Assembly: GCF_006538725.1 (NCBI RefSeq)
Contig: NZ_BJLQ01000002.1
Span: 62,001 to 126,000, forward strand
DNA: 64,000 nt
Direction of reading: 5' to 3'
Source: Cellulomonas gelida
Lineage (GTDB): Bacteria > Actinomycetota > Actinomycetes > Actinomycetales > Cellulomonadaceae
Of the stretch, positions 14,625 through 37,313 are shown piece after piece. The translations under genes were made by a program, and so were the position numbers. Below the pieces are notes generated by a model. It worked only from the letters and a program-made list of their open reading frames with translations. It was not told the origin of the DNA and did no database searches. Each line of letters starts with the position of its first letter. Within the stretch, counting starts at the first letter, position 1.

Positions 14625-14653
14625 CTCACCTGGGGCTCGTGACGTGCCGATGA
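14625..14653 (+). promoter_or_regulatory. FliA/sigma-28-like promoter of the fibronectin-III gene
   Basis: CTCA (14625-14628), exactly 17 bases, then GCCGATGA (14646-14653). The -10 octamer is identical to that of pilT. The predicted start near 14659 leaves a leader of about 32 nt ending in the TGGAGG Shine-Dalgarno. Confidence 0.65.
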
Positions 14654-14690
14654 GCCGACGATCCGTGTGACAAGCGTGCCTGGAGGCATT

Positions 14691-22673: not shown

Positions 22674-22702
22674 CTATCGGGAGCGATCACTCCCGACTTG
22701 AG
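22674..22702 (-). promoter_or_regulatory. FliA/sigma-28-like promoter of pilM
   Basis: Minus strand CTCA (22702-22699), 17 bases, CCCGATAG (22681-22674). The extended -35 CTCAAGTCGGG is identical to that of pilT, and CCGATAGGTC is identical to pilB. The predicted leader is about 37 nt. Confidence 0.7.
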
Positions 22703-22761
22703 CGGAATCGGTGATCGCTTGCGGCTCGTCCGCGCTGCTCCGGTCGCGCCTCAGACGCAGG

Positions 22762-23547
22762 TCAGATGCTGCCCAGGTACCAGGTCCACAGGGGCTCCCC
22801 CGCGACGATCCCGAAGGCCGCGCCGAGCAGCATCCAGGGCCCGAACGGGATCGCCGACTTGCGCCCGGCCCGCCCACGCGCGAGCAGTGCGACCGCGTAG
22901 ACGCCGCCCAGCACGAAGGCCGCGAACCAGCCGAGCGCGAGCGCGCCCCAGCCGAACCACCCGAGATAGAGACCGAGCACCCCGGCGAGCTTGACGTCGC
23001 CGAAGCCCATGCCCGCGGGGTAGACGAGCACCGTCACGAAGTAGACCGCGTACAGCACCGCGCCGCCGATGAGCGCGCGCACGAGCGCCTGCCAGTCCGC
23101 GTCCCCGGTGGGGTTCCAGCTCGCGAGGGCGAGCAGCACCACAGCGACCGGGTACGACGGCAGCACGATCGCGTTGGGCAGGCGGTGCGTGTCGATGTCG
23201 ATGAGCGCGAGCGCGACGCTGATCGCCACGAGGTACAGCAGCGCCGGCAGCACCCACTCGGGGCCCGTCCACCAGGCCGTCAGCGCGAACAGCACGCCGG
23301 TCCCGAGCTCGACGAGCGGGTAGCGCGGCGAGATCGGCTCCCCGCAGTCGCGGCAGCGACCACGCAGCACGAGCCACGAGAGCACCGGGACGTTGTCCCG
23401 CCCGCGGATCGCGTGCCCGCACCTCGGGCACGCCGACGGCGGGTGCACCACGGACTCACCCCGCGGGACACGCCAGACGACGACGTTGAGGAACGAGCCG
23501 ATCGCCAGGCCGACGAGACCCGACAGGAGGACGAGTGCTGCGCTCAT
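22762..23547 (-). CDS. pilD: prepilin peptidase / N-methyltransferase
   Basis: This 261-residue polytopic membrane protein cuts prepilin leaders after glycine and methylates the new N-terminus. The N-terminal zinc site CPRCGH...CRDCG is intact, and both catalytic aspartates are present in LIDIDTHRLPN and GFGDVKL. About seven to eight hydrophobic helices follow. It starts 5 bases after the stop of the preceding PilX-like gene, so it ends the minor-prepilin operon. It should process PilA and the minor prepilins encoded to its right. Confidence 0.95.
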   Translation of the reverse strand: MSAALVLLSGLVGLAIGSFLNVVVWRVPRGESVVHPPSACPRCGHAIRGRDNVPVLSWLVLRGRCRDCGEPISPRYPLVELGTGVLFALTAWWTGPEWVLPALLYLVAISVALALIDIDTHRLPNAIVLPSYPVAVVLLALASWNPTGDADWQALVRALIGGAVLYAVYFVTVLVYPAGMGFGDVKLAGVLGLYLGWFGWGALALGWFAAFVLGGVYAVALLARGRAGRKSAIPFGPWMLLGAAFGIVAGEPLWTWYLGSI

Positions 23548-23551
23548 GCGC

Positions 23552-25124
23552 TCAGGGAGTTCCGATCTCGCGCTTGTAGACGACGTCCACGCGATAGCCC
23601 GCGTTGCCGACCGGGTCCGTCGAGGGCAGGTCGACGCCCGGGATGCCGATCGGGACGTAGTTGATCGTCACGGGGTTGCGAAGGTTGACGGTGCCACCGT
23701 AGAGCTGTCCGTGGATCTGCGTGTCGTTGTTCGTGTCGATCGTGCACGGCGTGTACATGAAGACCGTGATCGGGGCGACCGCGAGGCTGCCCGAGTCGCC
23801 CTTGATGTTGCCGATCCCGCCCGCGCACTCCGCGACGCCGTTCGGGTTCTTGTCGGGCACGATGATCCAGAACTTGTGCTGGGCGCCGTCGGCCGAGGTC
23901 ACGCGGAAGTTGCCGGTCGAGTAGAAGCTGTTCGCGAAGATCACCATGTCGGACCGGAGCTTGATGTTCAGACCGTTCTCGAACTGCGTCGTCGCGCAGT
24001 TGCGCGTGTCGAACACCGTGGGCACGGTCGGGCCGACGAGCGGGCCGTTGAGGTCGTAGCTCGCGCCGGCGACCGTGCACTGCGTGCCGCTCGCGTTCAT
24101 GGAGCTCGCCCAGCTCGGCGCGCCGTTCGCGGCCGCGTTCGCCCGGACCCACGTGCGGTAGGCCGCCTGCCGGTCCCCCGTGTTCGCGAAGCCGACCCAG
24201 TCCGACGGGCGGTAGGTGACCTCGGGGAGGCCCTTCTTGATGTACTGCGGGATCTGCGCGGCGCCGACACCGGTGCGGATCGCGCCGCCGACCTGGATCG
24301 GGCCCCACTGCGTGAGCGCACCGGTCAGCACGACGTCCTGCCCGATCTTCACGCCCGAGTTCATGCGCGCGTTGGCGGTCGCGAACAGCGACTGGCCGAC
24401 GCTCTGCAGGCCACCCGTGTGGGCCTGGGAGATCTCGACGTCCTTCTTGCTCCACAGGTTGCCCGTGACCCGGCAGGCCCCCGAGATGCGCACCCCCCCC
24501 GCTGACGACGATCAGGTTGCCGTTGACGGTGACGCCCGAGTTGCAGTCGACGTCCCCCGAGTCGACCCACACGTCGACGGCGGTGTCGGGCAGCGCGGTC
24601 GTCACGGTGAACGAGTTGGTCGTCATGATGCTGTTCGCCGCGAAGATCGCCGCTCCGCGCCCCGTGATCACCGAGGGCGTCAGCGCGACCTTCGACTGCA
24701 TGGTGCGCGTCGAGCCGTCGCCCTCCTTCGCCGTCGCCGTCACGACGGCCGTGGCGGCCGTCCCGCCGGTGACCGCGCCGGACGCGCAGGTGAGCGCCTT
24801 GCCGTCCTTGTCGAAGTACGCGATCGTCGCGTTGCCCGTGACGCGCGACGGAGTGGTGCCCGCGCTGGCGCTCCCCGTGGCCGGCCAGCGGCACGGCGTC
24901 GCGGTCTCGAGGTCGGCGTAGACGTGGTCGACGATGCCCTCGGCCGCGTGCACCTCGGTGCTGCGCGCGCGGTCCTTGCCCGAGCTGCGCGTCGCGACGA
25001 TGACCGAGCCGACCACCGTGAGCGCGAGCATCACGCCGACGATCGCGACCGCGACGGCGGCGACGAGCACACTGCCCCGGTCGTCGCGGACGCCCGCGAG
25101 CCGGCGGCGGATGACTGCACGCAT
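23552..25124 (-). pseudogene. PilX-like pilus-associated protein, frameshifted at a G8 tract
   Basis: The N-terminus (RDDRGSVLVAAVAVAIVGVML) is a PilX-like class III-type hydrophobic stretch without the usual Glu5; a long extracytoplasmic domain follows. The frame shifts at eight G residues (24493-24500, minus strand). With seven G the protein would be 523 residues, joining VVSGG to VRISGACRVTGN and a well-formed second half that ends FDTRNC...VVYKREIGTP. With eight G the frame stays open to 23544 (526 residues) but the second half is low-complexity Gly/Arg/Ala-rich shadow. It may be phase-variable, broken, or a sequencing error. The ATG at 25124 has GAGGAG upstream. It sits between a PilW-like gene and pilD. 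Confidence 0.75.
24493..24500 (-). repeat. G8 mononucleotide tract at the frameshift
   Basis: Eight consecutive G on the coding (minus) strand. Removing one base restores the full-length frame of the PilX-like gene. It sits exactly at the point where the sensible reading frame changes. Confidence 0.9.
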
Positions 25125-25141
25125 GCTGCTCCTCCTCGTCC

Positions 25142-25834
25142 TCACGCCGGCGGGACCGGCGAGCAGGTGTCGGCCGGGTAGCCGAAGATCGTGTTGCGCC
25201 CCGTGAGCGTCGACGTGACAGTCGCGGCCTTCGAGTCCTCGCGCTGGTCGGGGTCCTTGACGCGCAGCGTCACGCGGATGGTCTGCGCGTTGGACGACGA
25301 CTCGGCGTTGGTCTGCTCGACGAAGAACGGCGGCCAGGTGCTCGGGTCGGTCTCGACGACCGTCGCCGACGTCGGCCGCACGACGTCGCGAGCGACCGTG
25401 CGCCACGACTCGACGCCACCGGTGGACTGCCACGACGGCTTCCACGACCGGTACTCCAGGCGCCCGAACTCCGAGGTCGCGCCGAACACGACGCGCCACT
25501 GCACGCACTGGTAGACGCCGTCGGTCTGGGTGTACACGCGCAGCGAGTAGTGGGTGTCGGCGCCCGACATCGCGAACGTCTCGGCGGCCGGGTCGGAGAT
25601 CACGTTCCCCGAGCGCACCTGCCGGTCGATCTGCATGAGCCCGATCCGGACCTGCTCGGTCGCCTCGGTGCGGGCCAGGTTGTCCTTCGTCTGGCGCGCC
25701 ATCGTGAGCATGATCCCGAACACGATCGTCATGAGACCCATGAAGATCCCCATGACCACGAGGAGCTCGACGAGCGTGTAGCCCGACTCGTCACGCCGCT
25801 GCAGCGCGCGCACGCGCGCGATCGACTCACGCAC
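25142..25834 (-). CDS. minor prepilin, PilW/PilJ-like
   Basis: This 230-residue pseudopilin has prepilin cleavage site RDESG|YTLVELLVVMGIF with Gly-1 and Glu5, followed by a hydrophobic alpha-1 helix. The head domain (VYQCVQWRVVFGATSEFGRLEYRSW, split) resembles PilW/type II secretion J-like prepilins. The GTG at 25834 overlaps the end of the previous gene by eight bases and has AAGGCGG upstream; GTG 25870 is possible but would give an unusually long leader. It should be processed by the PilD gene downstream and help prime pilus assembly. Confidence 0.82.
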   Translation of the reverse strand: MRESIARVRALQRRDESGYTLVELLVVMGIFMGLMTIVFGIMLTMARQTKDNLARTEATEQVRIGLMQIDRQVRSGNVISDPAAETFAMSGADTHYSLRVYTQTDGVYQCVQWRVVFGATSEFGRLEYRSWKPSWQSTGGVESWRTVARDVVRPTSATVVETDPSTWPPFFVEQTNAESSSNAQTIRVTLRVKDPDQREDSKAATVTSTLTGRNTIFGYPADTCSPVPPA

Positions 25835-27617
25835 CGGGAGCCGCCTTGAAGCCGGCCGCCGCGCGGGCACCGCCGAGGCTCGTCGTGACGACGAACGCGA
25901 AGGTGCCGGACGGGCCCGTGACGCGGTAGTGCACGGCGAGGGTGATCGCGCCGGTCTCCGACGAGATCGAGCATCCCTCGCCCGTGCAGCCCGCGGGATC
26001 CGCCGCGGACGCGAGCGACGAGACCGGGGTGACGGAGACCTGACCGCTCGCGGTCACGGTGTAGGCGCCGCTGGCCCAGGTGACCGCGCCCGTGTTCGCG
26101 GTGATGTTCGTCGCCCCCGAGAGCGTCACGGTCGTGTACGCCGAGCCGTTCCAGTACCGCACCGATCCCGAGCGCGTCGTGACGGCGGCCGAGGTCCGCT
26201 GCGCGAGGCCGCGGTCCACCCGCGTCGCGTCCGTGTAGGACGTGACCTGCAGCAGACCGCTGCTCGCCTTGCCCCCGGACCACGGCCCGGAGCCGGAGGT
26301 GACGGTGCCCAGGCTGCGCGATGCACCGGCCGCCGTGCAGCCGGGGCCCGACAACGTGGTGCAGCCGATGGCGGAGGCGCCCACGGCCGTGCTCAGGCGC
26401 GCCCCGAACGTGGTCATGCTCGAGCTGCCGATCCGGCTGAGCTCGAACGTGGTCCCGGTGATCGTCAGCGCCGTGACGGACGGCGAGGACGACGTCAGGA
26501 CCGAGGCGGCACAGGGCGCCGCCGCGGGGATCCCGGTCGCGCACGACGTCACCGTCGAGGAGCTGACCTTCCCCTGGTCCCCGGAGCCGGGCGTGAGGGC
26601 GAGCCGCAGCGGGCCGGTGTCGACCGCGAGCGTGCCCGCGACACCCACGGACGTCACCGGCGCGGGGTCGAGCGGAGCGGCGCCAGCCGACCCGACGTCG
26701 TTGGAGGCCTGGATCGCGGCCTTGTCACCGCCCGTCGTCGCGCTCGGGTCGGTCGCGCCGGCGGCGGTCAGCGCGCCGCTCGCGTGCAGCGCGCTGGACT
26801 CCGCGTTCGTCGACTGCTGCGCCGTGACGCCGACGCCGGCCTGACCGACGCGCAACGAGGCGACGGTCGTGTCGGTGCCCGGCAGGATCGGCGTGGTCGA
26901 GTCGACCGCGGGGTCGCCGACGACTCCGCCGAACGCGGCCGTGATGGTCGTCTGCGGTCCGGTGCCACCCGCGCTGGACGAGAACAGCGCCTGGCACGCG
27001 CCGAGGTACGGCTGGTTGTTGGCGTCACCGCAGCCGCCCTGCGGCGCGTAGGCGCTCGAGCGCATGACCACGTGGCGCTGCTTGGCCTGCTGGTTCGCCT
27101 TCCAGGTCGTGATGACGGTCAGCGTGAGCACGTCGGGATCCGCTGCGGCCCGGGTGACGTAGGAGCGCGACGTGAAGCGGATCCCCGGTGCCTCCGGGTT
27201 GCTCGTGCGCGTGACGTTCGAGCCGCTGGCGCCGGACAACGGTGCGCGGTTGGTGGCCTGAGCGGTGCTCGTGATGAGCACCTCGTCGATGCTGGGCTCC
27301 ATCGGCGGGCGCAGGTGCGTGCCGGACACGTTCGGGTCGACGCCGTCGGCGCTCGCGAAGCCCGCGTGCAGGCCCTTGTTGAGCGTGTTCCACGGCAGTG
27401 CGCGCAGCTGCTCCATGACCTGGTTGGTCACCGCGGTCCCGAGGGTGCGCTGCCGCGTCTGCGCGGTCGTCACCAGTGCGGAGGTCTGCACCGCGGCCAG
27501 GCCGAGCAGCACCCCGCCGATGATGATCATCGCGACGAGGAGCTCCATGAGCGTGAACCCGGAGTCGTCCTCGCTCGTCGGCGGTCGAACCTCGGCCACG
27601 GACGACCTCCCACTCAT
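25827..27617 (-). CDS. minor prepilin, PilV-like, with very large C-terminal domain
   Basis: 596 residues with cleavage site SEDDSG|FTLMELLVAMIIIGG (Gly-1, Glu5) about 19 residues from the start. The first 200 residues look like a PilV-like prepilin. The remainder, about 400 residues, is Ser/Thr/Ala/Gly-rich beta-type sequence with CGDANNQPYLGAC and AGCTGEGC cysteine pairs. Typical PilV proteins are 150-200 residues, so this is likely a tip or cargo-bearing subunit. The ATG at 27617 has GGGAG upstream. A FliA-like promoter at 27660-27688 lies in the 146-base gap before it. Confidence 0.82.
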   Translation of the reverse strand: MSGRSSVAEVRPPTSEDDSGFTLMELLVAMIIIGGVLLGLAAVQTSALVTTAQTRQRTLGTAVTNQVMEQLRALPWNTLNKGLHAGFASADGVDPNVSGTHLRPPMEPSIDEVLITSTAQATNRAPLSGASGSNVTRTSNPEAPGIRFTSRSYVTRAAADPDVLTLTVITTWKANQQAKQRHVVMRSSAYAPQGGCGDANNQPYLGACQALFSSSAGGTGPQTTITAAFGGVVGDPAVDSTTPILPGTDTTVASLRVGQAGVGVTAQQSTNAESSALHASGALTAAGATDPSATTGGDKAAIQASNDVGSAGAAPLDPAPVTSVGVAGTLAVDTGPLRLALTPGSGDQGKVSSSTVTSCATGIPAAAPCAASVLTSSSPSVTALTITGTTFELSRIGSSSMTTFGARLSTAVGASAIGCTTLSGPGCTAAGASRSLGTVTSGSGPWSGGKASSGLLQVTSYTDATRVDRGLAQRTSAAVTTRSGSVRYWNGSAYTTVTLSGATNITANTGAVTWASGAYTVTASGQVSVTPVSSLASAADPAGCTGEGCSISSETGAITLAVHYRVTGPSGTFAFVVTTSLGGARAAAGFKAAPGA

Positions 27618-27659
27618 GACACCGCTCCCACGGACAGTCGTCCAGGAGTCCTGACCGAC

Positions 27660-27688
27660 GTATCGGCGCAACTCGGCGCCACCATGAG
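27660..27688 (-). promoter_or_regulatory. FliA/sigma-28-like promoter inside the minor-prepilin run
   Basis: Minus strand CTCA (27688-27685), 17 bases, GCCGATAC (27667-27660). The predicted leader to the ATG at 27617 is about 37 nt. It would start a transcript covering the two PilV/PilW-like genes, the frameshifted PilX-like gene and pilD. Confidence 0.65.
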
Positions 27689-27763
27689 CCCCGCCGGCCG
27701 CGTGCACACGCACGTCTTGGCTGACGAGACGGGCGAAAGCGACGCGGCAGGAGGAACGCGGCA

Positions 27764-29716
27764 TCAGGTCCGGGTCGCGGCGGGCGTGTTCACCTCTCCG
27801 GAGTAACGCAGCGTGTACTTCGCGTTGGCCCACTTCGGGAAGTAGGGCGGCGTCGTGAACTGCAGGCGCGTGTCGTACTGGTAGAGCTTCGTGTAGCCGT
27901 TCTGGGTCCCGCTCACCGTCTGGCCGACGACGCCGCGCCAACGCTGCGCGATCGAGCCCTTGACGAACAGCGTGCCCTTGTCCCCGCCGACGTTGTACTT
28001 CTGCACGTAGAACGAGTGCAGCAGGGTCTGGATCGACCCGGCGATCTGGATGCCCTTCGTCGGGACGTACGCGGGTGCGCCCGGCTCCTTGTAGCGCTGG
28101 GGCCAGCCCGAGACCTCACCGACGCTCTCGAGCGCGCTCTTCCACTCGAACTGCGTCGAGCTGTACGTCTTGCACGTGCCGTTGGAGTAGAAGACCGCGC
28201 ACTTCGCCTGGGCCTTCATGGTGCCGAGCCGCGGGTGGAAGACCTCGACGGAGTCGGTGGCGACCAGGCCGAGCAGGTCCGTGCCGGTCACCGTCCCGCC
28301 GTTGAGCACCAGGTCACCGGTCGCGATGATCGACTGGGCCGAGGCGAGCGTCACGCGGCCGTTCAGCACGCCCTCCGCGTAGAGGTTGCCCCGGCCGCAC
28401 TGCTTCGTCAGCTCGAGCATGTTCTCGTCGGCCGTGTACGTCGAGCTCGCCGACGTCGGGTTGGCGCCCGTGAACGAGCCGACCGGGAGGGTGGATCCCG
28501 TCGGTCCGCCGAGCTCGCCGGCGAAGCACTGCCGGTTCGCAGCGCCGGAGTGGTCCGCGTAGATGACCATGTCGGTCGGCACGGGCACCGTCGCGCCGGA
28601 CGCGCTGTTGAGCTGCGCGAGCGTCCCGCAGGTCGGTGCGGTGCCGCCGGGGGCGGCAGTCGGCGTCGGCGCCTTGCCGCCGTTCACCGCCGTCTTGTTC
28701 CAGACCCGCATGGTGCCGTTGGCGGCGAACACGACGCGCGTCGAGCCGTAGTAGTGGCAGCCGGGCGTGGACGCGAAGGCCGCGGAGTTGTCCGGGAGGT
28801 ACAGCGGGTCGTGGTACTTCGGCCTGACCCCGTTGAAGTCGGCGACGCTCCCCGAGCGCAGGCACTTGGACTCCCACGTGGACGACGACGCCGTGGCCGT
28901 CGCGCACTTGGGGTCGGCGGTCCAGACCTGCTTGACGAAGCGCGGCTTCAGACCGGAGTAGGCGGTGCCGAGGATCGTGTCGTTGGTGAACACCTCGCCG
29001 TCCAGCGAGTCACCGCCGATGAACGTGATCTCGGTGCAGCCCTTGCCCGAACGGCTCGGGACCGAGTGCCAGTACGACGCGCTCGACGAGCCGTCCTTGC
29101 CGCACGCGACGACCGAGGTGCCGCCCGCGCCGTACGCCTGGACGTTCGCGGGGTCGGCCGACTCGAAGTCCGTGTAGTAGACGTAGTCGGTCGAGCCACC
29201 CTTGCCGACGGTCGTGTCGATCGTGCGGTACGTGTCGCGGACCCGGCCCGTGACGACGAGCCGGTAGGTGCCCTGCGCCCGCTGCGAGGAGTCGACCGTG
29301 TAGTGGAAGTGCGGCGCGCGCGGGTTCGTCTGCCCGGGCTCGACCGGCAACCAGCCCACCGCCGTCGACGGGCCCCAGCCGCACGCGTTGCTGCTCGCCG
29401 GCATCGGGCCGCGCCACGCCGCGTTCGTGCAGTCCGGGGTGTAGCCGTACGCGTCCATCCGGTTGATCCGGCTGATGAAGTCGTCCACACCCGACTGCGC
29501 CGCCGCCATCGCGGAGGAGTAGTCCTGGTCGTACCGCGCGAACTTCTGGCTGCTCATCGTGTACGTCAGCCCGGTCATCGCGAGCATGCCGAGGATGAGC
29601 ATCGTCCCGACGACGACCACGAGGATCGACCCGCGCTCCCCGTCGGGTGCCGTGCGGGGTGCGAGCACCCGCGTCCGCACACGCTGCCGCACGCGGACTG
29701 CTCGGGCCGGGCTCAT
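27764..29716 (-). CDS. large PilX-like pilus-associated protein
   Basis: 650 residues. An N-terminal arginine-rich stretch is followed by DGERGSILVVVVGTMLILGMLAMTGL (split), a PilX-type hydrophobic helix without Glu5, then ARYDQDYSSAMAAAQSGVDDFISRIN typical of PilX-like proteins. The extracytoplasmic part is long, cysteine-containing and beta-rich, with no recognised catalytic motif. Architecture matches the frameshifted gene at 23552-25124, so the operon carries two such proteins. The ATG at 29716 overlaps the previous stop (ATGA) and has GGGGAGG upstream. Role inferred: pilus tip or assembly factor. Confidence 0.75.
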   Translation of the reverse strand: MSPARAVRVRQRVRTRVLAPRTAPDGERGSILVVVVGTMLILGMLAMTGLTYTMSSQKFARYDQDYSSAMAAAQSGVDDFISRINRMDAYGYTPDCTNAAWRGPMPASSNACGWGPSTAVGWLPVEPGQTNPRAPHFHYTVDSSQRAQGTYRLVVTGRVRDTYRTIDTTVGKGGSTDYVYYTDFESADPANVQAYGAGGTSVVACGKDGSSSASYWHSVPSRSGKGCTEITFIGGDSLDGEVFTNDTILGTAYSGLKPRFVKQVWTADPKCATATASSSTWESKCLRSGSVADFNGVRPKYHDPLYLPDNSAAFASTPGCHYYGSTRVVFAANGTMRVWNKTAVNGGKAPTPTAAPGGTAPTCGTLAQLNSASGATVPVPTDMVIYADHSGAANRQCFAGELGGPTGSTLPVGSFTGANPTSASSTYTADENMLELTKQCGRGNLYAEGVLNGRVTLASAQSIIATGDLVLNGGTVTGTDLLGLVATDSVEVFHPRLGTMKAQAKCAVFYSNGTCKTYSSTQFEWKSALESVGEVSGWPQRYKEPGAPAYVPTKGIQIAGSIQTLLHSFYVQKYNVGGDKGTLFVKGSIAQRWRGVVGQTVSGTQNGYTKLYQYDTRLQFTTPPYFPKWANAKYTLRYSGEVNTPAATRT

Positions 29717-30471
29717 TCGTCCTCCCCTGGACGCAGCACGGCCTGCGAGTTCGGGAGCAGGACGCGCTGGATGTAGGTCGTGGGTCCCGTGGAGTTCCGG
29801 TCGTCGGACCGGACCCGCAGGGTGAACTCGATCGACAGGACCTGGTCGATCTGCAGGGCCGTCAAGGCACCGCCCGACCCGGGGGTCATGGCGTCGCCGT
29901 CGTTGTTGAAGTAGACGAGCGGAGCGACCGGCCCGTCCGTCTGCACGCCCTCGGCCAGGACCTTCGTCGTCATGCGCGCCTTGCACGTCCCGGAGGCGCC
30001 CGCTGCGAGGGCGTCGCAGTAGCTGTAGCCGTTGCTCCCGGGGGTCGACGAGTCCGGGCGCTGCACGCGCTCGACGAGCCGCGCCTCGCCCGCGCCCGTC
30101 GGCTCGAGCGTGTAGGTCACCTGACGCGGCCCCACGGCGTTCCCCGCGTTGTCGAGGTTCGCGTAGAACTTCATGGACGTCGACGACGCGCTCACGAAGG
30201 CATCGAGCTCGGAGCACGTCGACGTCACGCAGTTGATGAGCTGGCTCGGCTTGACTGCCGTGCGCACCACCTTCGTGAGCCGTTCAGCGGCCGTGCGCGC
30301 CGCGTCGACCTGGTCCTGGCGGGCGATGCTCTGCGCGTTGACGCGGTGGTACCCGATCGCGAGCGTCGTGAGGGCGGCCATGAGGATCGAGAAGATGGTC
30401 ATGCCGATCAGCAGCTCGGCCAGGCTCGTGCCGCGCTCGTCGCGGCGCAGGCGGTCCAGACGTGGTCTCAT
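29713..30471 (-). CDS. minor prepilin, PilW-like
   Basis: 252 residues with cleavage site RDERG|TSLAELLIGMTIF (Gly-1, Glu5), 14-residue leader and a hydrophobic alpha-1 helix. The head contains two pairs of closely spaced cysteines (NCVTSTCSEL; SYCDALAAGASGTC). Length and position after a PilV-like gene fit a PilW/J-like minor prepilin. The TGATG junction with the previous gene and the four-base overlap with the next imply tight translational coupling. Confidence 0.85.
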   Translation of the reverse strand: MRPRLDRLRRDERGTSLAELLIGMTIFSILMAALTTLAIGYHRVNAQSIARQDQVDAARTAAERLTKVVRTAVKPSQLINCVTSTCSELDAFVSASSTSMKFYANLDNAGNAVGPRQVTYTLEPTGAGEARLVERVQRPDSSTPGSNGYSYCDALAAGASGTCKARMTTKVLAEGVQTDGPVAPLVYFNNDGDAMTPGSGGALTALQIDQVLSIEFTLRVRSDDRNSTGPTTYIQRVLLPNSQAVLRPGEDE

Positions 30472-31535
30472 CACGGCACCACCACGTCGATGGTCGGGAT
30501 GCCGGGTCCGCCCGGGGCGACCGTGGCGTAGCCGCCTGCGGGAGGCAGGGTGCCCAGGTAGGCGCCGTACTGCGTCGGCCACAGCCCCGTGAGGTCGACG
30601 ACCGCGGCGTCGGCGACGAGGAGCCGGGCGCCCGAGGCTCCTGCGTACTCCGCCGCGACGAGCGTGTACGGCTGGCCCGCGACATCCGAGTCGGCCACGA
30701 GGTCGCCGGCCGCGTCGACGAACCGGATCCGCAGGGCCATGGCCTTGTCGTACGCGAAGGTCGTGTTGTTGTTGAGCTTGCCGCGTTCCACCAGGCCTAC
30801 GGACTTCACCGGCTCGGCCGTGCCGGAGACGTCGACGTAGCCGGAGTCCGACAGCCTGGCGGAGTACAGGGTGCCCGAGCTCGCAGGGTTCACCTGCACC
30901 ACCGCGCAGCCGGACGCGTCGGTGACGCCCGAGCGCGTCTCCGTGGCCGAGTACACGATCACCGACCGGCCCGAGCTGGGTGCCCCCTTGGCGGTCGAGA
31001 CCTTGACGGCCACGTAACCGTGCGTGCCGACGACCTTGTCGTCCTTGCGCGGCGCGAGCGCCGCGACCGACGTCACCGGCGCCACCTGACCCATGCCGTC
31101 CCAGGTGACCTCGACGGCCACCCGCAGCGTCGGGTAGTTGACGACCGAGCCGCCGTCGCACGCGGAGACCCCGTGCCCGGTGAGGTTCCAGGCACTCGTG
31201 CGGCGCACGGTGTACGACGTCCCGTCGACCACGAGCGCCTGACCCGCGACCTGACCGGTGAGCGGGTGCGGGTTGTCGACCGTGCCCTCGTCCGCGACCT
31301 CGGCCGGCGCGTCGGCGTCCCGGCTGAACTCCTCGCGCACGATGTCGAGCTCGCGCGCCGCGAGGTTGGCCGCAGCGACCCTGCTGCGGTTCGAGACGCT
31401 CATCGCCTGGGTCTGCAGCACGATCCCGACCACGACCATCGACAGGATGCCCAGGACGAGCATCGCGACGGTCAGCTCGACCATCGAGAAGCCGTCGTCC
31501 CCGCGCTCGTCGCGCTTCGTCGCACGTTCAGGCAT
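30471..31535 (-). CDS. minor prepilin, PilV-like, with Ig/carboxypeptidase-regulatory-like domain
   Basis: 354 residues with cleavage site RGDDG|FSMVELTVAMLVLG (Gly-1, Glu5). After the prepilin core, residues about 170-260 contain SGRSVIVYSATETRSGVTDAS and GCAVVQVNPASSG, which look like the repeat fold of carboxypeptidase-regulatory or Cna-B-like domains, a plausible adhesive decoration. The ATG at 31535 has GGAAG upstream. It is the first gene of the minor-prepilin operon; no FliA-like pair with correct spacing is visible ahead of it (a GCCGATTC at 31619-31612 lacks a -35). Confidence 0.82.
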   Translation of the reverse strand: MPERATKRDERGDDGFSMVELTVAMLVLGILSMVVVGIVLQTQAMSVSNRSRVAAANLAARELDIVREEFSRDADAPAEVADEGTVDNPHPLTGQVAGQALVVDGTSYTVRRTSAWNLTGHGVSACDGGSVVNYPTLRVAVEVTWDGMGQVAPVTSVAALAPRKDDKVVGTHGYVAVKVSTAKGAPSSGRSVIVYSATETRSGVTDASGCAVVQVNPASSGTLYSARLSDSGYVDVSGTAEPVKSVGLVERGKLNNNTTFAYDKAMALRIRFVDAAGDLVADSDVAGQPYTLVAAEYAGASGARLLVADAAVVDLTGLWPTQYGAYLGTLPPAGGYATVAPGGPGIPTIDVVVP

Positions 31536-31688
31536 CTGACTTCCAACGCCTTTCCTTGAAGCGGCCGCACTCGCGGCCTTCCCCCATCCAACTGCGGTGG
31601 GAATCGCATGGGAATCGGCCGGAAGGGTGAGATCACGGGGTCTAGAGTACGAATCCGATAACCGGACATAAATCGGGCATCGAGCCTC

Positions 31689-31726
31689 CGAGAAAGGGCG
31701 GGAGTCGAAACTCCCGCCCTTTCTCG
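31689..31726 (-). terminator. pilA terminator
   Basis: A perfect 17-bp stem closing a four-base loop, 13 bases after the pilA stop. It would isolate the abundant pilA transcript from the minor-prepilin operon. Confidence 0.9.
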
Positions 31727-31739
31727 TCAAAGCGTCAGA

Positions 31740-32165
31740 TCAGCAGGTGCCCTCTTCGAGGCCGCCCGCGGCGGAGTACTTGTAGCCGGTCGCGGCCTTG
31801 TCACCCTTGTCGTTGGTGACGTAGACGCACCAGTCCTGGTCGTCCGACGCGCCGGTCAGGTTGCCGAAGTCGACGTTCTTCGACGCGTTGCCGACCGCCT
31901 CGCCGTTCACCGTGAGCTTGCCGCCCGTGATGTCGGCCGTGACGGCAGTGGTGCCGTCCCAGTCCACGAAGTACGTGGCGATCTCCTTGCCGAGCGTGGA
32001 GACGTCCGCCTTGGCCGCCGAGTCCTCGGCCTTCTTGCGCTGGTTGAGGAACACCGGGATCGCGATGGCCGCGAGGATGCCGATGATGATCATGACGACG
32101 AGGAGCTCGATCAGGGTGAAGCCCTGGTCCTTCTCCTGCATGGACTTGCGGATGCGAGCGATCAT
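31740..32165 (-). CDS. pilA: major type IVa pilin
   Basis: This 141-residue prepilin has a 15-residue leader ending KDQG|FTLIELLVVMIIIGILAAIA (Gly-1, Glu5), the canonical type IVa sequence. The globular domain carries two cysteines (DWCVYV and the C-terminal Cys of EEGTC), expected to close the D-region disulphide. It has its own transcript, with a strong terminator behind and a degenerate FliA-like promoter (32249-32277) ahead. AGGAGCTC precedes the ATG at 32165. Confidence 0.95.
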   Translation of the reverse strand: MIARIRKSMQEKDQGFTLIELLVVMIIIGILAAIAIPVFLNQRKKAEDSAAKADVSTLGKEIATYFVDWDGTTAVTADITGGKLTVNGEAVGNASKNVDFGNLTGASDDQDWCVYVTNDKGDKAATGYKYSAAGGLEEGTC

Positions 32166-32214
32166 TGCTGAGCTCCTGAAGTCGAGTGCGAATGCTGTGG
32201 ATGTCCAACTCAGT

Positions 32215-32230
32215 CCGGCCGCAGGGCCGG
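32215..32230 (-). other. small hairpin in the pilA leader
   Basis: CCGGCC and GGCCGG pair perfectly around a four-base loop, about 50 bases upstream of the pilA start and within the predicted 78-nt leader. It could stabilise the pilin mRNA. No riboswitch fold is evident. Confidence 0.4.
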
Positions 32231-32248
32231 TTCAGAACTACTCCCGCA

Positions 32249-32277
32249 AGATCGTCCGCTGGTGCCCCGGACTTAAG
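32249..32277 (-). promoter_or_regulatory. degenerate FliA-like promoter of pilA
   Basis: Minus strand CTTA (32277-32274), 17 bases, GACGATCT (32256-32249). Extended -35 CTTAAGTCCGG resembles CTCAAGTCGGG of pilM and pilT; the -10 matches GCCGATAG at five of eight positions. Spacing is identical, but the weaker boxes leave doubt. Confidence 0.4.
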
Positions 32278-32349
32278 CGTGAGTTCCAGTTCGACGCAGA
32301 TTCACCCGAACGGCGCACGGTGATCCTTTGCCGGGCATCGACGGACAAA

Positions 32350-32384
32350 ACGCAACGCCGCCGTGAGGACCGGCGGCGTTGCGT
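32350..32384 (-). terminator. terminator of the pilT-pilC transcript
   Basis: A perfect 14-bp stem (ACGCAACGCCGCCG) with a 7-base loop, followed on the minus strand by TTTT. It is the only hairpin in the window with a clear U-run and lies 42 bases past the pilC stop. Confidence 0.92.
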
Positions 32385-32426
32385 GGGGCGTCGTGGAGGC
32401 CCGGTACCCGGACCCGTGCCTGCGAC

Positions 32427-33650
32427 CTACTCGATGAGGTTGAAGATCCCGAAGATCGGCATGTACATCGCGATGACCATGCTGCCGATGATCGCGCCGA
32501 TGACGACGATCATGATCGGCTCGATGAGGCTCGTGAGCTGGTCGGTGGTCGCCTCGACCTCGTCGTCGTAGAAGTCGGCGACCTTGCCGAGCATCGTGTC
32601 GAGCGCGCCCGTGTCCTCGCCGACCGCCATCATCTGCACGACCATGGGCGGGAAGACGGCGTGGTGCGCGAGCGGGCCGGCGAGCGACTCACCACGGCGC
32701 ACGGACTCCTGCACGTCCTTGGCGGCGTGCTCGACGACCATGTTGCCGCTCGTCTCGCCGACCACCTCGAGCGCCTGCAGCAGCGGGACGCCCGAGCTGA
32801 TCATGGTGCCGAAGTTGCGGGTGAACCGCGCGACCGCGATCTTGCGGAACAGGTTGCCGAACACCGGCAGGCGCAGCTTGAGCGGGTCGATCTTCTCGCG
32901 CACCGCGCGGTCGTTCTTGTGCTTGCCCCACCAGCCGCTGAAGACCGCGAGGGCGATCACGAGCGGGATGATGGTGATCTTCATGAACTCCGAGAGCTGG
33001 ACCAGGATCTTGGTCGGCAGCGGCAGGTCGCCGCCGAGCGTCGTGAACATCCCCGCGAAGACCGGGACGATGAACAGCAGCATGCCGATCGTCGCGAGGA
33101 TCGCGACCACGAACACCACGACCGGGTAGGTCATCGCCGACTTGATCTTGTTCTTGAGCTTGACCTCGGCCTCGAAGTTGTCCGCGATCGAGACCATCGC
33201 CTTGTCGAGGAAGCCGCCGACCTCCCCCGCCTTGACCATGTTGATCATGAGCGGCGGGAAGATGTGGTCGTGCTTCGCGAACGCGATCGACAGCGCGGTG
33301 CCGACCTCGACGTCGTTGCGGACCTGGCCGATGATCCGCGCGAGCGGCTTGCTCTCGGTCTGCTCGGCCAGGATCGACAGCGCGCGCAGCAGTGACAGGC
33401 CCGAGTCGATCATCGTCGCCATCTGGCGCGACATGACCGCGAGGTCCTTGAGCCCGACGCGTTCCCCACCGATGTTGATCTCGCGGTTGAGGCCGCCGGA
33501 GCTGACCTCGGAGATCGAGACCGCGGCCAGGCCCATGTCCCGCAGACGGTTCGCGACCGCCGCCTGGGTGGGCGCCTCGACGCGGCCCTTGACGAGCTTG
33601 CCGCTCTTGTCGCGGACCGCGTACTCGAACGTCTTCGCCTCGTTCGACAT
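32427..33650 (-). CDS. pilC: type IV pilus inner-membrane platform protein
   Basis: This 407-residue GspF-family protein has two tandem cytoplasmic GspF domains (DLAVMSRQMATMIDSGLSLLRALSIL near 75-100 and its repeat ARFTRNFGTMISSGVPLLQALEVV near 275-300) and three to four membrane helices. It is the platform on which the PilB and PilT motors act. The ATG at 33650 shares a base with the pilT stop (TGATG). It ends the pilT-pilC unit, followed by a U-tailed terminator. Confidence 0.95.
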   Translation of the reverse strand: MSNEAKTFEYAVRDKSGKLVKGRVEAPTQAAVANRLRDMGLAAVSISEVSSGGLNREINIGGERVGLKDLAVMSRQMATMIDSGLSLLRALSILAEQTESKPLARIIGQVRNDVEVGTALSIAFAKHDHIFPPLMINMVKAGEVGGFLDKAMVSIADNFEAEVKLKNKIKSAMTYPVVVFVVAILATIGMLLFIVPVFAGMFTTLGGDLPLPTKILVQLSEFMKITIIPLVIALAVFSGWWGKHKNDRAVREKIDPLKLRLPVFGNLFRKIAVARFTRNFGTMISSGVPLLQALEVVGETSGNMVVEHAAKDVQESVRRGESLAGPLAHHAVFPPMVVQMMAVGEDTGALDTMLGKVADFYDDEVEATTDQLTSLIEPIMIVVIGAIIGSMVIAMYMPIFGIFNLIE

Positions 33651-35437
33651 CACATCACCTGTCCGTGCGTGGCGCCGAGCATCGGCTCGCCGGTCATCAC
33701 AGGGTCGGCCAGGTTGGCGCTGCCCTGCGTGGCACCGGAGAACCGGCCGGTCAGCCGGTTGAAGTCCTCGGCGTGGTGGCACTTCTCGAGGCCGACCTCG
33801 TAGGTGATCTTCCCCTGCTTCACGAGCTCGGCCAGGTGCTGGTCCATCGTGTGCATGCCCTGCTTCGCGCCGGCCTGCATGGACGAGTAGATCTGGTGCG
33901 TCTTGCCCTCACGGATGAGGTTGCGGATCGCGGGCGTGGCCACGAGCACCTCGGTCGCGACCGCGCGGCCGGGCGAGTCCGCCCGCTTGCAGAGCGTCTG
34001 ACAGACGACGCCCTGCAGCGCGCCCGCGAGCTGCGTGCGGACCTGGTCCTGCTGGTGCGCGGGGAACACGTCGATGACACGGTCGATGGTCTGCGCGGCG
34101 TCCTGCGTGTGCAGCGTCGCGAAGACCAGGTGGCCCGTCTCGGCTGCGGTGAGCGCTACCGAGATCGTCTCGAGGTCGCGCATCTCGCCGACGAGGATGA
34201 TGTCCGGGTCCTGCCGGAGCACGTGCTTGAGCGCGTTGGCGAACGACAGTGTGTCCGCGCCGACCTCGCGCTGGTTGACCAGCGACTTCTTGTGCCGGTG
34301 CAGGAACTCGATCGGGTCCTCGACCGTCATGATGTGGTCCTCGCGCGTGCGGTTCGCGAGGTCGACGATCGAGGCGAGCGTCGTCGACTTGCCCGAGCCC
34401 GTGGGGCCTGTGACCAGGACGAGGCCACGCGGCAGGCCCGCGAAGTTCGCGACGACCGCGGGGACGCCGAGCTCCTCGAGCGGCTTGATCTCGTACGGGA
34501 TCACGCGGAACGCGGCACCGATCGACTCACGCTGCTGGTAGAGGTTCACTCGGAAGCGCGCGAGCCCGCGCACCGCGTGCGAGAAGTCCAGCTCGAGGTT
34601 CGTCTCGAACGTCTCGCGCTGCTTCTGCGTGAGGATCGAGTACAGCGTGCGCCGCAGCGGCTCCGGCATCATCGCCGGGAAGCCCTCGAGCGGCTTGAGC
34701 GCCCCCGAGATGCGGACCATCGGCGGGGCGCCGGTGGTGAAGTGGACGTCCGACGCGTTGAGCTCGACCATCTGGGTCAGCACGTTGTCGATCGAGATGT
34801 CCCCCTCCTGCGCCTCCTGCGCCATGCCGACCCGCGCTGCGGCACGGTCACGACGCTGAGCGGTCGGCTGGCCGCCTGCGGGCGCCTGCCCCGGGCGCGG
34901 CCCCTGCGGTGCGGCCGGTGCCTGCTGCGCCGGTGCGGGCGTGAAGGTGCCGACCGGTGCGGCGGCCGCGGGTGCCGGTGGCTGCGACTGGGACGGCACC
35001 GGGCTGAACGTGGCACCGCCGGGGGTGAAGGTGGCGGGCGCCGCCGGACCGTTCGGGTGGAACGTCGCGGCCGGTGCGGGCGTCGTTCCACCGGGCGTGA
35101 AGGCGGCCGCGGGGCCGGGCGTGCCGCCCCCGGGCGCGTACGCGGCGCCGGCCGGCGTGAAGGTCGGGTGCGCGACGCTCCCCGTCGCCGGCGACGCCGG
35201 GGTGCGGAACTGCTCGCGCGCCGCCGCGACCGACAGCGTCGCTCCCGCCGCGGCGGGCTGCGGCTGAGCGACGGGCTGCTGGGCAGTCGGCGGCAACGGC
35301 GCACCGACGGACTGGGAGGGGATCGGTGAGAACGTCGGCTGACCGCCCGCCGCGGGGGCTCCGGCCTGCGGCCCTGCCGGGCGGTACGGCGGCAGGGGGC
35401 GCGTCGGCTCGCCCTGCGGCTGGTAGTACTCGCTCAC
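33650..35437 (-). CDS. pilT: type IV pilus retraction ATPase with proline-rich N-terminal extension
   Basis: The hexameric ATPase core occupies residues about 205-560: LNASDVHFTTG, Walker A GPTGSGKST (344-352), the TVEDPIEF Asp-box, Walker B IILVGEMRD (413-421), LHTQDA His-box, and the PilT-specific AIRNLIREGKTHQIYS near the C-terminus. Residues 1-200 are a Pro/Ala/Gly/Gln-rich disordered extension absent from standard 350-residue PilT. The GTG at 35437 has GGGAGGAAATGAC upstream; a shorter internal start before MAQEAQEGDISID cannot be excluded but lacks that site. It is co-transcribed with pilC. Confidence 0.93.
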   Translation of the reverse strand: MSEYYQPQGEPTRPLPPYRPAGPQAGAPAAGGQPTFSPIPSQSVGAPLPPTAQQPVAQPQPAAAGATLSVAAAREQFRTPASPATGSVAHPTFTPAGAAYAPGGGTPGPAAAFTPGGTTPAPAATFHPNGPAAPATFTPGGATFSPVPSQSQPPAPAAAAPVGTFTPAPAQQAPAAPQGPRPGQAPAGGQPTAQRRDRAAARVGMAQEAQEGDISIDNVLTQMVELNASDVHFTTGAPPMVRISGALKPLEGFPAMMPEPLRRTLYSILTQKQRETFETNLELDFSHAVRGLARFRVNLYQQRESIGAAFRVIPYEIKPLEELGVPAVVANFAGLPRGLVLVTGPTGSGKSTTLASIVDLANRTREDHIMTVEDPIEFLHRHKKSLVNQREVGADTLSFANALKHVLRQDPDIILVGEMRDLETISVALTAAETGHLVFATLHTQDAAQTIDRVIDVFPAHQQDQVRTQLAGALQGVVCQTLCKRADSPGRAVATEVLVATPAIRNLIREGKTHQIYSSMQAGAKQGMHTMDQHLAELVKQGKITYEVGLEKCHHAEDFNRLTGRFSGATQGSANLADPVMTGEPMLGATHGQVM

Positions 35438-35500
35438 GTCATTTCCTCCCGGGTGTCGCGCAGCCCGCGACGTCAGGTCGGCCTCCTGGCCCCGGTCGCT

Positions 35501-35529
35501 TCATCGGCGGTCGCCGCACCCGACTTGAG
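35501..35529 (-). promoter_or_regulatory. FliA/sigma-28-like promoter of pilT-pilC
   Basis: Minus strand CTCA (35529-35526), 17 bases, GCCGATGA (35508-35501). The extended -35 CTCAAGTCGGG is identical to pilM and the -10 octamer is identical to the fibronectin-III gene. The predicted leader is about 58 nt. Confidence 0.72.
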
Positions 35530-35576
35530 CAGATCGCCCCAGGTACTTCGACCCCGGACCCACGCCGGAGACCAGG

Positions 35577-37250
35577 TCAGGCGACGACGCGCAGGATCTC
35601 CTCGATCGAGGTCTGACCCATGACGACCTTGTACCAGCCGTCGTTGCGGAGCGAGGTCATGCCCTGCTGCATGGCGGTGTTCGCGATGTCGGCGGCCGAC
35701 GAGTGCGCGACGGCGTGCCGCTCGATCTCCTCGGTGACCCGCATGACCTCGTGCAGCGCGAGCCGTCCCTTGTAACCGGTCTTGGAGCATGCCGTGCACC
35801 CGCCCGGCCGGAACAGCTCGGGCACGGGCTCCCCCGGGACCCACGGGAACCGTGCGGCCTCCATCTCCTCGACGGACGGCTGGTACGGCACCTTGCACTT
35901 CGAGCACAGGCGCCGCGCGAGGCGCTGGGCGACGACGCAGTCGAGCGCGGACCCGACGAGGAACGGCTCGATGCCCATCTCCGTCAGACGCGTCACGGCA
36001 GACGGGGCGTCGTTGGTGTGCAGGGTGGACAGCACGAGGTGTCCCGTGAGGGCTGCCTCGATGGCGATCTGCGCGGTCTCGTGGTCACGGATCTCACCGA
36101 GCAGCACCACGTCCGGGTCCGAGCGCAGGATCGACCGCAGCGCGGCCGCGAACGTGAGCCCGGCCTTCGGGTTGACCTGCACCTGGTTGATGCCCGCGAG
36201 GCGGTACTCGACCGGGTCCTCGACGGTGATCACGTTGATGTCGGGCTTGGAGACGGCGTTCAGCGTGGCGTAGAGCGTCGTCGACTTCCCCGAGCCGGTG
36301 GGACCGGTGACCAGGATCATGCCGTACGGCTTGGTGTACGACTCCTTGTACGTCTCGTAGTTGTGGTCGAGGAAGGACAGGTCGCGCAGGTCCAGGCTCG
36401 CGGTGGAGTTGTCGAGGATGCGCATGACGATCTTCTCGCCCCACACCGTCGGCAGCGTCGCCACGCGCAGGTCGATCTTGCGACCGTTGTGCACCACCGA
36501 CATGCGGCCGTCCTGCGGCTTGCGCTTCTCGGCGATGTCGATGTCGCTCATGATCTTCACGCGGGAGATGACGCCGCCGGTGATGTTCTTGGGCGAGCGC
36601 TGCGTCTCGTGCAGCACGCCGTCGATGCGGTAGCGCACCCGCAGGTCGTGCTCGGACGGCTCGATGTGGATGTCCGAGGCGCGGTCGGTGATCGCCTGCG
36701 TCACGAGCAGGTTCACGTACCGCACGATCGGCGCGTCGTCGTCGACGAAGTCGCCCATCTTCGACAGGTCCGCCTCGGGCTCGACCTGCGCGTCCTCGAA
36801 CGCCGACGAGAGGTTCTCCATCTCGCCGTCGGCACGCACGAACCGGTCGATCGCGCGCACGACGTTGTCGTAGGTCGCGATCACCGGGGTGACCTGCATC
36901 CCCGACATCGTGCGCACGTCGTCGACCGCCATGACGTTGCCCGGGTCCGCCGTCGCCAGGATCAGCACGCCGTTCTGGATGGCGATGGGCAGCACGCTGT
37001 ACCGACGGCACAGCGCGCCGGGGACCATCGCGACCGCGGCGCGGTCCACGGGGTGCTCGTCGAGGTCGATGAACTGCATCCCGACCTGCGCGGCGAGCGC
37101 CTGGACGAGCTGGTTCTCCGTCAGCATCCCGAGCTCGACCAGCGTGCGCCCCAGGGACGTGCCCGACACGAGCTGCTCGTCGAGCGCAGACAGCAGCTGC
37201 GCCTCGGTGACCAGACCCTCTTCGAGCAGAATCTCGCCCAGCTGCTTCAC
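35577..37250 (-). CDS. pilB: type IV pilus assembly (extension) ATPase
   Basis: 557-residue GspE-family motor. An N-terminal MshEN-type module has two helical repeats (QLGEILLEEGLVTEAQL, 3-19; SLGRTLVELGMLTENQL, 32-48). Then come ASDIHIEP, Walker A GPTGSGKST (316-324), Walker B VVLLGEIRD and a tetracysteine zinc site (Cys449, 452, 485, 488). I chose the GTG at 37250 because GGGAGGTGCT lies directly before it and the FliA-like -10 box ends only four bases before the in-frame ATG at 37280, which therefore lies at or ahead of the transcript start. The longer alternative would be 567 residues. Confidence 0.94.
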   Translation of the reverse strand: MKQLGEILLEEGLVTEAQLLSALDEQLVSGTSLGRTLVELGMLTENQLVQALAAQVGMQFIDLDEHPVDRAAVAMVPGALCRRYSVLPIAIQNGVLILATADPGNVMAVDDVRTMSGMQVTPVIATYDNVVRAIDRFVRADGEMENLSSAFEDAQVEPEADLSKMGDFVDDDAPIVRYVNLLVTQAITDRASDIHIEPSEHDLRVRYRIDGVLHETQRSPKNITGGVISRVKIMSDIDIAEKRKPQDGRMSVVHNGRKIDLRVATLPTVWGEKIVMRILDNSTASLDLRDLSFLDHNYETYKESYTKPYGMILVTGPTGSGKSTTLYATLNAVSKPDINVITVEDPVEYRLAGINQVQVNPKAGLTFAAALRSILRSDPDVVLLGEIRDHETAQIAIEAALTGHLVLSTLHTNDAPSAVTRLTEMGIEPFLVGSALDCVVAQRLARRLCSKCKVPYQPSVEEMEAARFPWVPGEPVPELFRPGGCTACSKTGYKGRLALHEVMRVTEEIERHAVAHSSAADIANTAMQQGMTSLRNDGWYKVVMGQTSIEEILRVVA

Positions 37251-37260
37251 AGCACCTCCC
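37251..37260 (-). promoter_or_regulatory. Shine-Dalgarno deciding the pilB start
   Basis: GGGAGGTGCT on the minus strand directly precedes GTG 37250. Together with the predicted transcription start near 37279 it argues against the upstream ATG at 37280. Confidence 0.55.
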
Positions 37261-37284
37261 AGTGACACGACGGCCGTCATCGAC

Positions 37285-37313
37285 CTATCGGCACCCGACC
37301 GACCGCGCCTGAG
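37285..37313 (-). promoter_or_regulatory. FliA/sigma-28-like promoter of pilB
   Basis: Minus strand CTCA (37313-37310), 17 bases, GCCGATAG (37292-37285), followed by GTC as at pilM. This is the closest match in the window to the sigma-28 -10 consensus GCCGATAA. Confidence 0.72.

Follow-up and report, generated by a model that had tools for sequence, protein, structure and literature searches.

Type IV pilus genes of Cellulomonas gelida and its relatives carry predicted promoters of the sigma-28 class that are probably read by a WhiG orthologue

In a stretch of 64,000 nt from the genome of Cellulomonas gelida (in the following called the window, meaning this whole stretch), the genes for a type IV pilus (pil genes) are preceded by the motif CTCA-N17-[GC]CCGAT, in which 17 bases separate the CTCA of the -35 box from the -10 box. 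From sequence comparison, we consider it probable that this motif is a promoter of the sigma-28 class read by the WhiG orthologue of this bacterium, and not by its flagellar sigma factor FliA. A first-pass annotation of the window had assigned the motif to the FliA/WhiG-like promoter class, which agrees with the boxes, the fixed spacing and the position upstream of genes. It had also placed the pili under a motility sigma factor. The sigma-28 family is retained here, but the paralogue is probably a different one, a WhiG orthologue being likelier than flagellar FliA.

Sites upstream of the pil genes in the window

The source genome consists of 3.79 Mb in 91 contigs, and the window corresponds to positions 62001-126000 of contig C2. 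All four sites noticed previously, upstream of pilB, pilT and pilM and, as a degenerate copy, pilA, are present in the orientation given for them (Table 1). Their positions were right, except that each interval extended two bases too far at its low end, the true sites being 27 bases long. Two shared segments reported with them can likewise be seen in the sequence, CTCAAGTCGGG, which is common to the pilM and pilT sites, and CCGATAGGTC, common to the pilB and pilM sites. The distance from the last base of the -10 box to the start codon is 36 bases for pilB, 65 for pilT, 44 for pilM and 85 for pilA. Exact matches to the motif occur five times in the window, and each of the other spacings from 12 to 21 gives two matches at most. 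Two of the five, at 14625-14651 (+) and 27662-27688 (-), were absent from the first-pass annotation.

In the entire genome, the motif has 21 matches versus 2 for the reversed pattern, and an extended form, CTCAAGTCS-N13-CCGAT with up to two mismatches, has 57 versus 12. When the spacing was made one base too long, with one specified base fewer, the control gave 64 matches versus 57 reversed. Many of the 21 matches lie inside coding sequence, as judged by a script evaluating open frames and codon composition; the bare pattern thus has chance matches, and the conservation of the sites among relatives carries more weight.

Conservation in the Cellulomonadaceae group

From a scan for relatives of PilC, we retained the 80 best loci out of 161. 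Twenty-nine of them form what we call the Cellulomonadaceae group, with the genera Cellulomonas, Cellulosimicrobium, Sanguibacter, Actinotalea and Pengzhenrongella; the other 51 are mostly from Microbacteriaceae. Loci in which the start of a gene was unreadable were excluded from the counts for that gene.

Exact sites upstream of the pil genes of these 80 loci number 71 at spacing 17, seven at 16 and four at 13, all of them in the Cellulomonadaceae group. For pilB (21 of 70) and pilT (16 of 62), exact sites were found at spacing 17 and at no other spacing; pilM has 23 of 72 at 17 and two at 16, and pilA 11 of 80 at 17, five at 16 and four at 13. The latter four lie 264-286 bases upstream and were rejected as pilA sites. 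No exact pil-gene site was detected at spacings 14, 15 or 18-21 in the 80 loci, and shuffled sequences gave at most 0.3 matches per cell of this count. Allowing one mismatch, spacing-17 sites were present within the group at pilB in 22 of 26 loci, at pilT in 19 of 22, at pilM in 25 of 27 and at pilA in 20 of 29, here mostly 68-96 bases before the start. Outside the group, the corresponding search yielded a single site at pilT (1 of 40 loci) and none at pilB, pilM or pilA. No exact site at spacings 13-21 was found in these non-group loci (44 for pilB, 40 for pilT, 45 for pilM and 51 for pilA).

A matrix trained on 113 sites of the group, none of them from the window, ranked the pilT, pilM and pilB sites highest in the window, followed by those at 14625, 27688 and 63457 and then by pilA; the reversed window contained nothing scoring at least 9. 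At a score of at least 15, the 29 group loci gave 97 matches (training sites included), 82 of which are upstream of pilB, pilT, pilM or pilA. Nine of the 15 unlabelled ones are situated, as placed by eye, in the pilB-pilC interval of loci whose pilT start was unread. In the 51 other loci, 18 matches reached this score, none of them upstream of these four genes. Both sets gave zero matches when reversed.

The motif also accompanies a second pilT gene that is unlinked to the cluster (C3:45133-46221), where it lies 10 bases before the GTG start codon. Every one of the 29 group genomes has an orthologue of this gene (75-98 %); in six further genomes, the search gave matches of 46-50 % only. Spacing-17 sites with at most one mismatch precede 27 of the 29 orthologues, those of loci L269 and L278 having none. 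The -10 box is 8-13 bases, mostly 9, away from the start, and the sequence suggests that the transcript is leaderless.

Two sigma factors of the FliA/WhiG family

A gene for a sigma-28-family factor had been presumed to lie elsewhere in the genome, and a search for fliA/whiG found two, C19:22732-23406 (261.6 bits) and C31:14315-14962 (162.9 bits); five weaker family matches are other sigma factors. The C31 gene, encoding the flagellar FliA, adjoins fliC. The C19 protein exceeds the curated TIGR02479 cut-off of 189.6 bits and scores 289 bits against PDB chain 6pfj versus 161 bits against chain 6pmi, which we take to be WhiG of Streptomyces venezuelae and FliA of Escherichia coli, respectively. 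Its gene is flanked by xerC-like and rpsB-like genes, as judged by eye from the open reading frames of locus L029 and with no family search; xerC, rpsB, tsf is the order that we assume for a whiG neighbourhood. In a tree of 28 WhiG-type proteins, 41 FliA-type proteins and two references, the WhiG-type proteins clustered with S. venezuelae WhiG with a support of 0.978, and all FliA-type proteins clustered with a support of 1.0. A second WhiG-type match of 253.9 bits (G007:C21:10069-10731) was observed in C. chitinilytica, the genome of locus L126, besides one of 264.9 bits.

We searched for these sigma factors in 50 of the 80 genomes with loci (29 of the group and 21 others), with a match list reaching down to 30 bits. 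WhiG-type genes scoring at least 257 bits were identified in 27 of the 50 genomes, all of which are among the 29 of the group. None of the 21 non-group genomes, which also lack the sites, has a WhiG-type sigma factor. FliA-type genes are present in 24 of the 29 group genomes and in 17 of the 21 others; the same number of non-group genomes, 17 of 21, possess both a FliA-type sigma factor and FlhA, yet their pil upstream regions contain neither an exact CTCA site at spacings 13-21 nor a CT[ACT]A site at 15-17. Conversely, no FliA-type match down to 30 bits was found in G005, G006, G009, G010 and G020, and the sites persist there, with exact matches at spacing 17 upstream of both pilB and pilT in the respective loci (L124, L125, L128, L129 and L139). 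FlhA was not found in G005, G009, G010 and G020, and G006 has only matches of 61 and 31 bits.

These distributions bear on the view of the first-pass annotation that the pil genes are transcribed by flagellar FliA, so that swimming and pili would be coupled. The promoter class is the same, C. gelida has its own FliA gene beside fliC, and the sequence SRISQ is common to the region-4 helices of both its sigma factors. Nevertheless, the sites are kept where no FliA-type match exists, they are missing from FliA-bearing genomes outside the group, and the flagellar sites have a different spacing (see below). We rejected FliA as the pil sigma factor on these grounds and regard this role as very improbable.

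Pil and flagellar sites differ by one base in spacing

The fliC site of C. gelida has a spacing of 16. Flagellar regions were taken from 20 of the 24 FliA-bearing group genomes, giving, together with that of C. gelida, 21 regions with 237,506 bases. Among the 19 relatives with readable fliC, nine exact fliC sites are at spacing 16, one at 15 and none at 17; with one mismatch, 13 are at 16 and one at 17. All exact sites in the 21 regions amount to 32 at 16, one at 17, two at 15 and nine in total at 14 and 19-21. The 17:16 ratio is hence 71:7 at the pil genes versus 1:32 in the flagellar regions (Fisher p 6e-20, uncorrected for descent and, because the sequences are related, descriptive only). 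In the non-group, Microbacteriaceae-type genomes, 16 of 17 fliC regions were readable, and 14 of these 16 have a one-mismatch site at spacing 16 (CTAA in 12, CTTA in 2) and none at 17. This CTAA/CTTA-N16-CCGAT element before fliC argues against the motif being the operator of a DNA-binding activator instead of a sigma site. As the boxes, the orientation, the start-codon distances and the near-constant gap to the GTG of the second pilT also fit a promoter, the operator explanation is hardly credible.

Located 3′ of flgL in the flagellar cluster, an HDOD-domain gene has a spacing-16 site that overlaps its predicted start (L093, 18684-18709 (+)).

Judging from the difference between 17 and 16, the extra spacer base, together with the AAG that follows CTC in most pil sites, probably helps to separate the two regulons. 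Alternatively, both sigma factors could read both sets, with WhiG dominant at the pili, FliA adding to it and the one base merely tuning strength. The boxes are nearly identical, seven of the 82 exact pil-gene sites are at spacing 16, and sigma-28 tolerates changes of the spacer. Against such shared reading stands the sharp split in spacing between the two gene sets, and we consider it unlikely.

In the preferred reading, RNA polymerase carrying WhiG would bind CTCAAG as the -35 box and [GC]CCGAT as the -10 box, separated from CTCA by 17 bases. It would start transcripts of pilB, of pilT, of pilM with the genes behind it, of pilA and of the unlinked second pilT. The near-identical boxes of the flagellar genes, with a gap of 16 bases, would fit FliA.

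Several observations weigh against this assignment. The spacing of 17 is not absolute, since two pilM and five pilA exact sites as well as four one-mismatch pilB sites of the group are at 16. These four (in L133, L137, L142 and L147), the group loci without a spacing-17 site at pilB, belong to 11 one-mismatch spacing-16 matches upstream of pilB in the group, of which one overlaps the N17 site (L130) and six represent a separate stretch 127-242 bases upstream. The AAG extension is mostly missing at pilB, and the pilA site of C. gelida itself has two mismatches. FliA-type genes are present in G003, G018 and G021, in which FlhA was not found, so that FlhA is an imperfect marker in draft genomes. 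Sites precede pilM and pilA in locus L122 of G003, a genome in which no WhiG was found, and G001 has only an end piece of WhiG of 109 residues, 80 % identical to the C. gelida protein, at the start of a contig. The WhiG match of G012 (C. cellasea NBRC 3753, L218) is interrupted by an in-frame TAG, despite four exact sites at the pil locus of this genome, L131; this stop may be either a true pseudogene mutation or a sequencing fault. Moreover, the genomes with sites are one related group, so that few independent events underlie the correlation with WhiG. The losses of FliA are a better test than the co-occurrence with WhiG, but they too may amount to few events.

An RsiG-like protein and a possible feedback site

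RsiG, an anti-sigma factor that depends on cyclic diguanylate (c-di-GMP), restrains WhiG in Rubrobacter and Streptomyces (PMC8325347). In the Cellulomonadaceae group, a family of RsiG-like proteins of ~137 residues is found in 25 of 30 genomes (C. gelida included), and we judge it rather likely from its sequence features that this protein is the anti-sigma factor of WhiG. In 24 of the 26 loci compared, its gene is flanked by nth and crp; the exceptions are L307, with crp only and near a contig end, and L325 (G027), with a non-homologue. In a Pfam search with the C. gelida protein, RsiG was the sole match (E 2.2e-5, 24.5 bits). All 20 aligned members match the RsiG profile as well, though the members had been found by that profile.

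The gene also carries a site of the WhiG type. With the pil-trained matrix, matches scoring at least 9 were found on the strand of the gene in 22 of 25 RsiG-like loci; three loci, among them that of C. gelida, had none. In the 17 loci with an assigned start, the match is located 9-67 bases before it. Of the 25 loci, 16 have the strict pattern CTCAAG-N15-xCCGA at spacing 17 and one has it at 18, compared with 0.015 in shuffled sequences; it was not found at spacings 12-16 or 19-22 upstream of these genes. For five loci with a long frame, the upstream region in this count was set by the position of the helix, not by the start codon. This spacing-17 site suggests feedback, in which active WhiG would raise its own inhibitor through the promoter of the RsiG-like gene and so limit pilus output. 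At the whiG loci, no site was tied to whiG itself; two of 27 had any match scoring at least 13, and these were not placed against the gene.

Other results speak against an RsiG-type regulator. The RsiG profile PF22802 has one match in the C. gelida genome (C45:13574-13684, 25.9 bits, E 2.9e-5), which is below the cut-off of 27. Only 3 of 36 genomes had a match above this cut-off, and weak matches (E >0.03) are common, controls included. Compared with RsiG in the PDB, the profile of the family reached an E value of 1.4, behind designed and apolipoprotein helices; NCBIfam gave nothing relevant for the protein. In a direct comparison, helix 1 of one RsiG reached a score of 11.5, exceeding all of 2000 shuffles by a small margin (maximum 11.0), the Rubrobacter helix scores above 1997 of 2000, and the helix-5 piece above 1979, being matched by 21 of 2000. 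The gene was not found in G003, G013, G022, G027 and G028, the last four of which have WhiG. At its site, the -10 box usually reads CCGAA, the last base being A and not T. It is GCCGTA in C. gelida and two near relatives, so that the C. gelida site is degenerate.

The known c-di-GMP motif, E(X)3S(X)2R(X)3[Q/H](X)3D, does not occur in helix 1 of the family (helix 5 was not counted). Among 25 homologues, R and D are kept in all 25. Q is kept in one and replaced by R in 23 and by K in one, S is found in two (T in another two), and E is never in place and instead one residue earlier in all 25. On the side of WhiG, K57, a contact of c-di-GMP, is kept in none of the 28 WhiG-type proteins, G61 in 21 and R62 in 27. 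The resemblance to RsiG thus stands, but two tests that define RsiG, the PF22802 cut-off and the c-di-GMP motif, came out negative.

The protein might therefore be a coiled-coil of other function that merely looks like RsiG, and its PDB match, the subthreshold Pfam score and the altered helix-1 residues would agree with that. RsiG being its sole Pfam match, the WhiG-type site at the gene, and the six WhiG-less genomes searched, which have no RsiG match better than E 0.03, point the other way. We consider another function quite conceivable, though not the favoured explanation. More tentative, with the chances somewhat against it, is a comprehensive scheme in which the two paralogues would be insulated mainly by spacing (17 for WhiG, 16 for FliA) and WhiG would be held by a rewired RsiG, driving its own anti-sigma factor. 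The RsiG face would have changed from E-S-R-Q-D to a conserved E-R-R-D, and K57 of WhiG would have been lost; hence the switch would be independent of c-di-GMP or read it in a new way.

Relation to known systems

This promoter class is not new at pilus genes, as cases from Rubrobacter radiotolerans and Actinoplanes are reported in PMC8325347. For R. radiotolerans, that paper maps the starts of 12 flagellar-class promoters, three of which belong to the pilus cluster, and its conclusion is that the pili are controlled by the RsiG-WhiG switch (PMC8325347). The first-pass annotation had mentioned a link between FliA and pili in Actinoplanes; this finds support at second hand in the Discussion of PMC8325347, according to which WhiG-like flagellar sigma factors direct pilus and flagellar genes in Actinoplanes, which is described there as lacking RsiG. 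The FliA-family sigma factors of Actinoplanes missouriensis are FliA1-3 (PMC13293333). The C. gelida system resembles both cases, sharing with Actinoplanes the tie between FliA/WhiG-family sigma factors and pilus genes, and with R. radiotolerans a WhiG orthologue, flagellar-class promoters in the pil cluster and a protein of the RsiG family (PMC8325347). It differs from R. radiotolerans in that the promoters there were searched as TAAA / GCCGATAA and their starts mapped, while ours are predictions, and in that the single-motif Rubrobacter RsiG binds c-di-GMP, while the motif is changed in the RsiG-like protein described here (PMC8325347). Further differences are the separate flagellar FliA, the pil and flagellar spacings that are one base apart and the site at the RsiG-like gene.

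The combination of a WhiG orthologue with an RsiG-like protein, whose two helices are predicted from its sequence, is reminiscent of the sporulation switch of Streptomyces. There, RsiG-WhiG controls sporulation, the c-di-GMP motif is intact and K57 of WhiG contacts c-di-GMP (PMC8325347). Here, in contrast, K57 is replaced in all 28 WhiG-type proteins. With classical sigma-28 flagellar promoters, the sites share a TAAA-like -35 box and a GCCGAT -10 box (consensus according to PMC8325347), but within the group, the spacer of the pil sites exceeds that of the flagellar sites by one base.

No description of WhiG/RsiG control of pili in Cellulomonas was present among the literature matches listed, with the supplements of PMC8325347, most subscription papers and preprints outside this scope. 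Also unseen among these matches were the WhiG assignment beside a separate FliA, the spacing of 17 versus 16, the RsiG-like gene between nth and crp and its site. The genomes of the group provide a clear and testable assignment of WhiG to type IV pili, with some relatives apparently devoid of FliA. They may also exemplify how a single base of spacing separates two near-identical sigma regulons, and they suggest that a WhiG/RsiG-like circuit exists beyond the families in which it mainly occurs according to PMC8325347, here with an altered ligand motif and a promoter for feedback. If true, one cell may keep two look-alike switches apart, WhiG for the pili and another for the flagella.

Gene arrangement in the window and further candidate sites

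On the minus strand, the pil cluster has the order pilB, pilT, pilC, pilA, minor-pilin-like genes, pilD, pilM, the pilN position and pilO.

Table 1 Predicted promoter sites and genes in the window.
Feature	Position	Strand	Basis or remark
Predicted WhiG-type promoter of pilB, CTCA-N17-GCCGAT	37287..37313	-	Pattern match and conservation
Predicted WhiG-type promoter of pilT, CTCAAG-N15-GCCGAT	35503..35529	-	Matrix score 28.3, the highest in the window
Predicted WhiG-type promoter of pilM, CTCAAG-N15-CCCGAT	22676..22702	-	Matrix score 28.1
Degenerate predicted WhiG-type promoter of pilA, CTTAAG-N15-GACGAT	32251..32277	-	Matrix score 13.8
Candidate site before secreted fn3 protein, CTCA-N17-GCCGAT	14625..14651	+	Exact; matrix score 17.3
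Weak candidate site before minor-pilin-like gene	27662..27688	-	Exact match; matrix score 16.4
pilB, extension ATPase with MshEN and T2SSE domains, GTG start at 37250	35577..37250	-	
pilT-like ATPase	33650..35437	-	
pilC (T2SSF)	32427..33782	-	
pilA, type IV pilin with N-methylation motif	31740..32165	-	
pilD, prepilin peptidase	22762..23547	-	
pilM	21567..22631	-	
pilN position	20815..21612	-	Inferred from gene order; no Pfam match
pilO	20016..20813	-	22 bits, exactly at cut-off
Secreted protein with fn3 repeats, frame from first GTG, 3′ of the 14625 site	14667..18620	+	

The protein encoded behind the exact site at 14625 has 1317 residues and contains several fn3 repeats; its match to the F5/F8 type C domain is weak and below the cut-off. 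It is possibly a surface adhesin co-produced with the pili. For the site at 27662-27688, no match scoring at least 15 was found at the corresponding place in L120, the sole relative with aligning DNA. Near the end of the window, CTCA-N17-GCCGAC occurs at 63431-63457 (-) with a matrix score of 14.0. A match at 20636 was rejected as a promoter, lying inside the pilO frame with a score of 9.9, and so was a spacing-13 match at 32537, inside pilC.

The cluster looks mosaic. Positions 37559-43000 of the window are 91 % identical in DNA sequence to locus L149 of C. persica, compared with 80 % for 32432-37514 and 73 % for 20588-23534. PilC is 89 % identical to that of C. rhizosphaerae and 67 % to that of C. 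persica. These differences make it likely that the cluster has been exchanged between species. The unlinked second PilT (98 %) and FliC (97.6 %) are nearest to those of G030, the genome with L149.

Elsewhere in the genome, candidate targets comprise genes for a LuxR-type regulator (C28:1628), a secreted CAP-domain protein (C30:8542) and a protein with a below-cut-off CAP match (C25:13761), together with four lacking a Pfam match (C4:7278, C58:359, C58:10269 and C43:4375). In five of these seven, the start codon is 9-10 bases past the -10 box, as if leaderless. Among the 11 sites of the genome with at most one mismatch to the extended form of the motif, six have an ATG or GTG 8-10 bases past the -10 box (binomial 5e-5, for a range chosen post hoc and with the frame at C12:87068 unconfirmed). 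The top score (29.5) of 58 matches scored in the genome belongs to a site at C16:64354-64380 (-) (L030 9355-9381), downstream of which no gene is evident on the same strand; it may possibly serve an antisense or small RNA.

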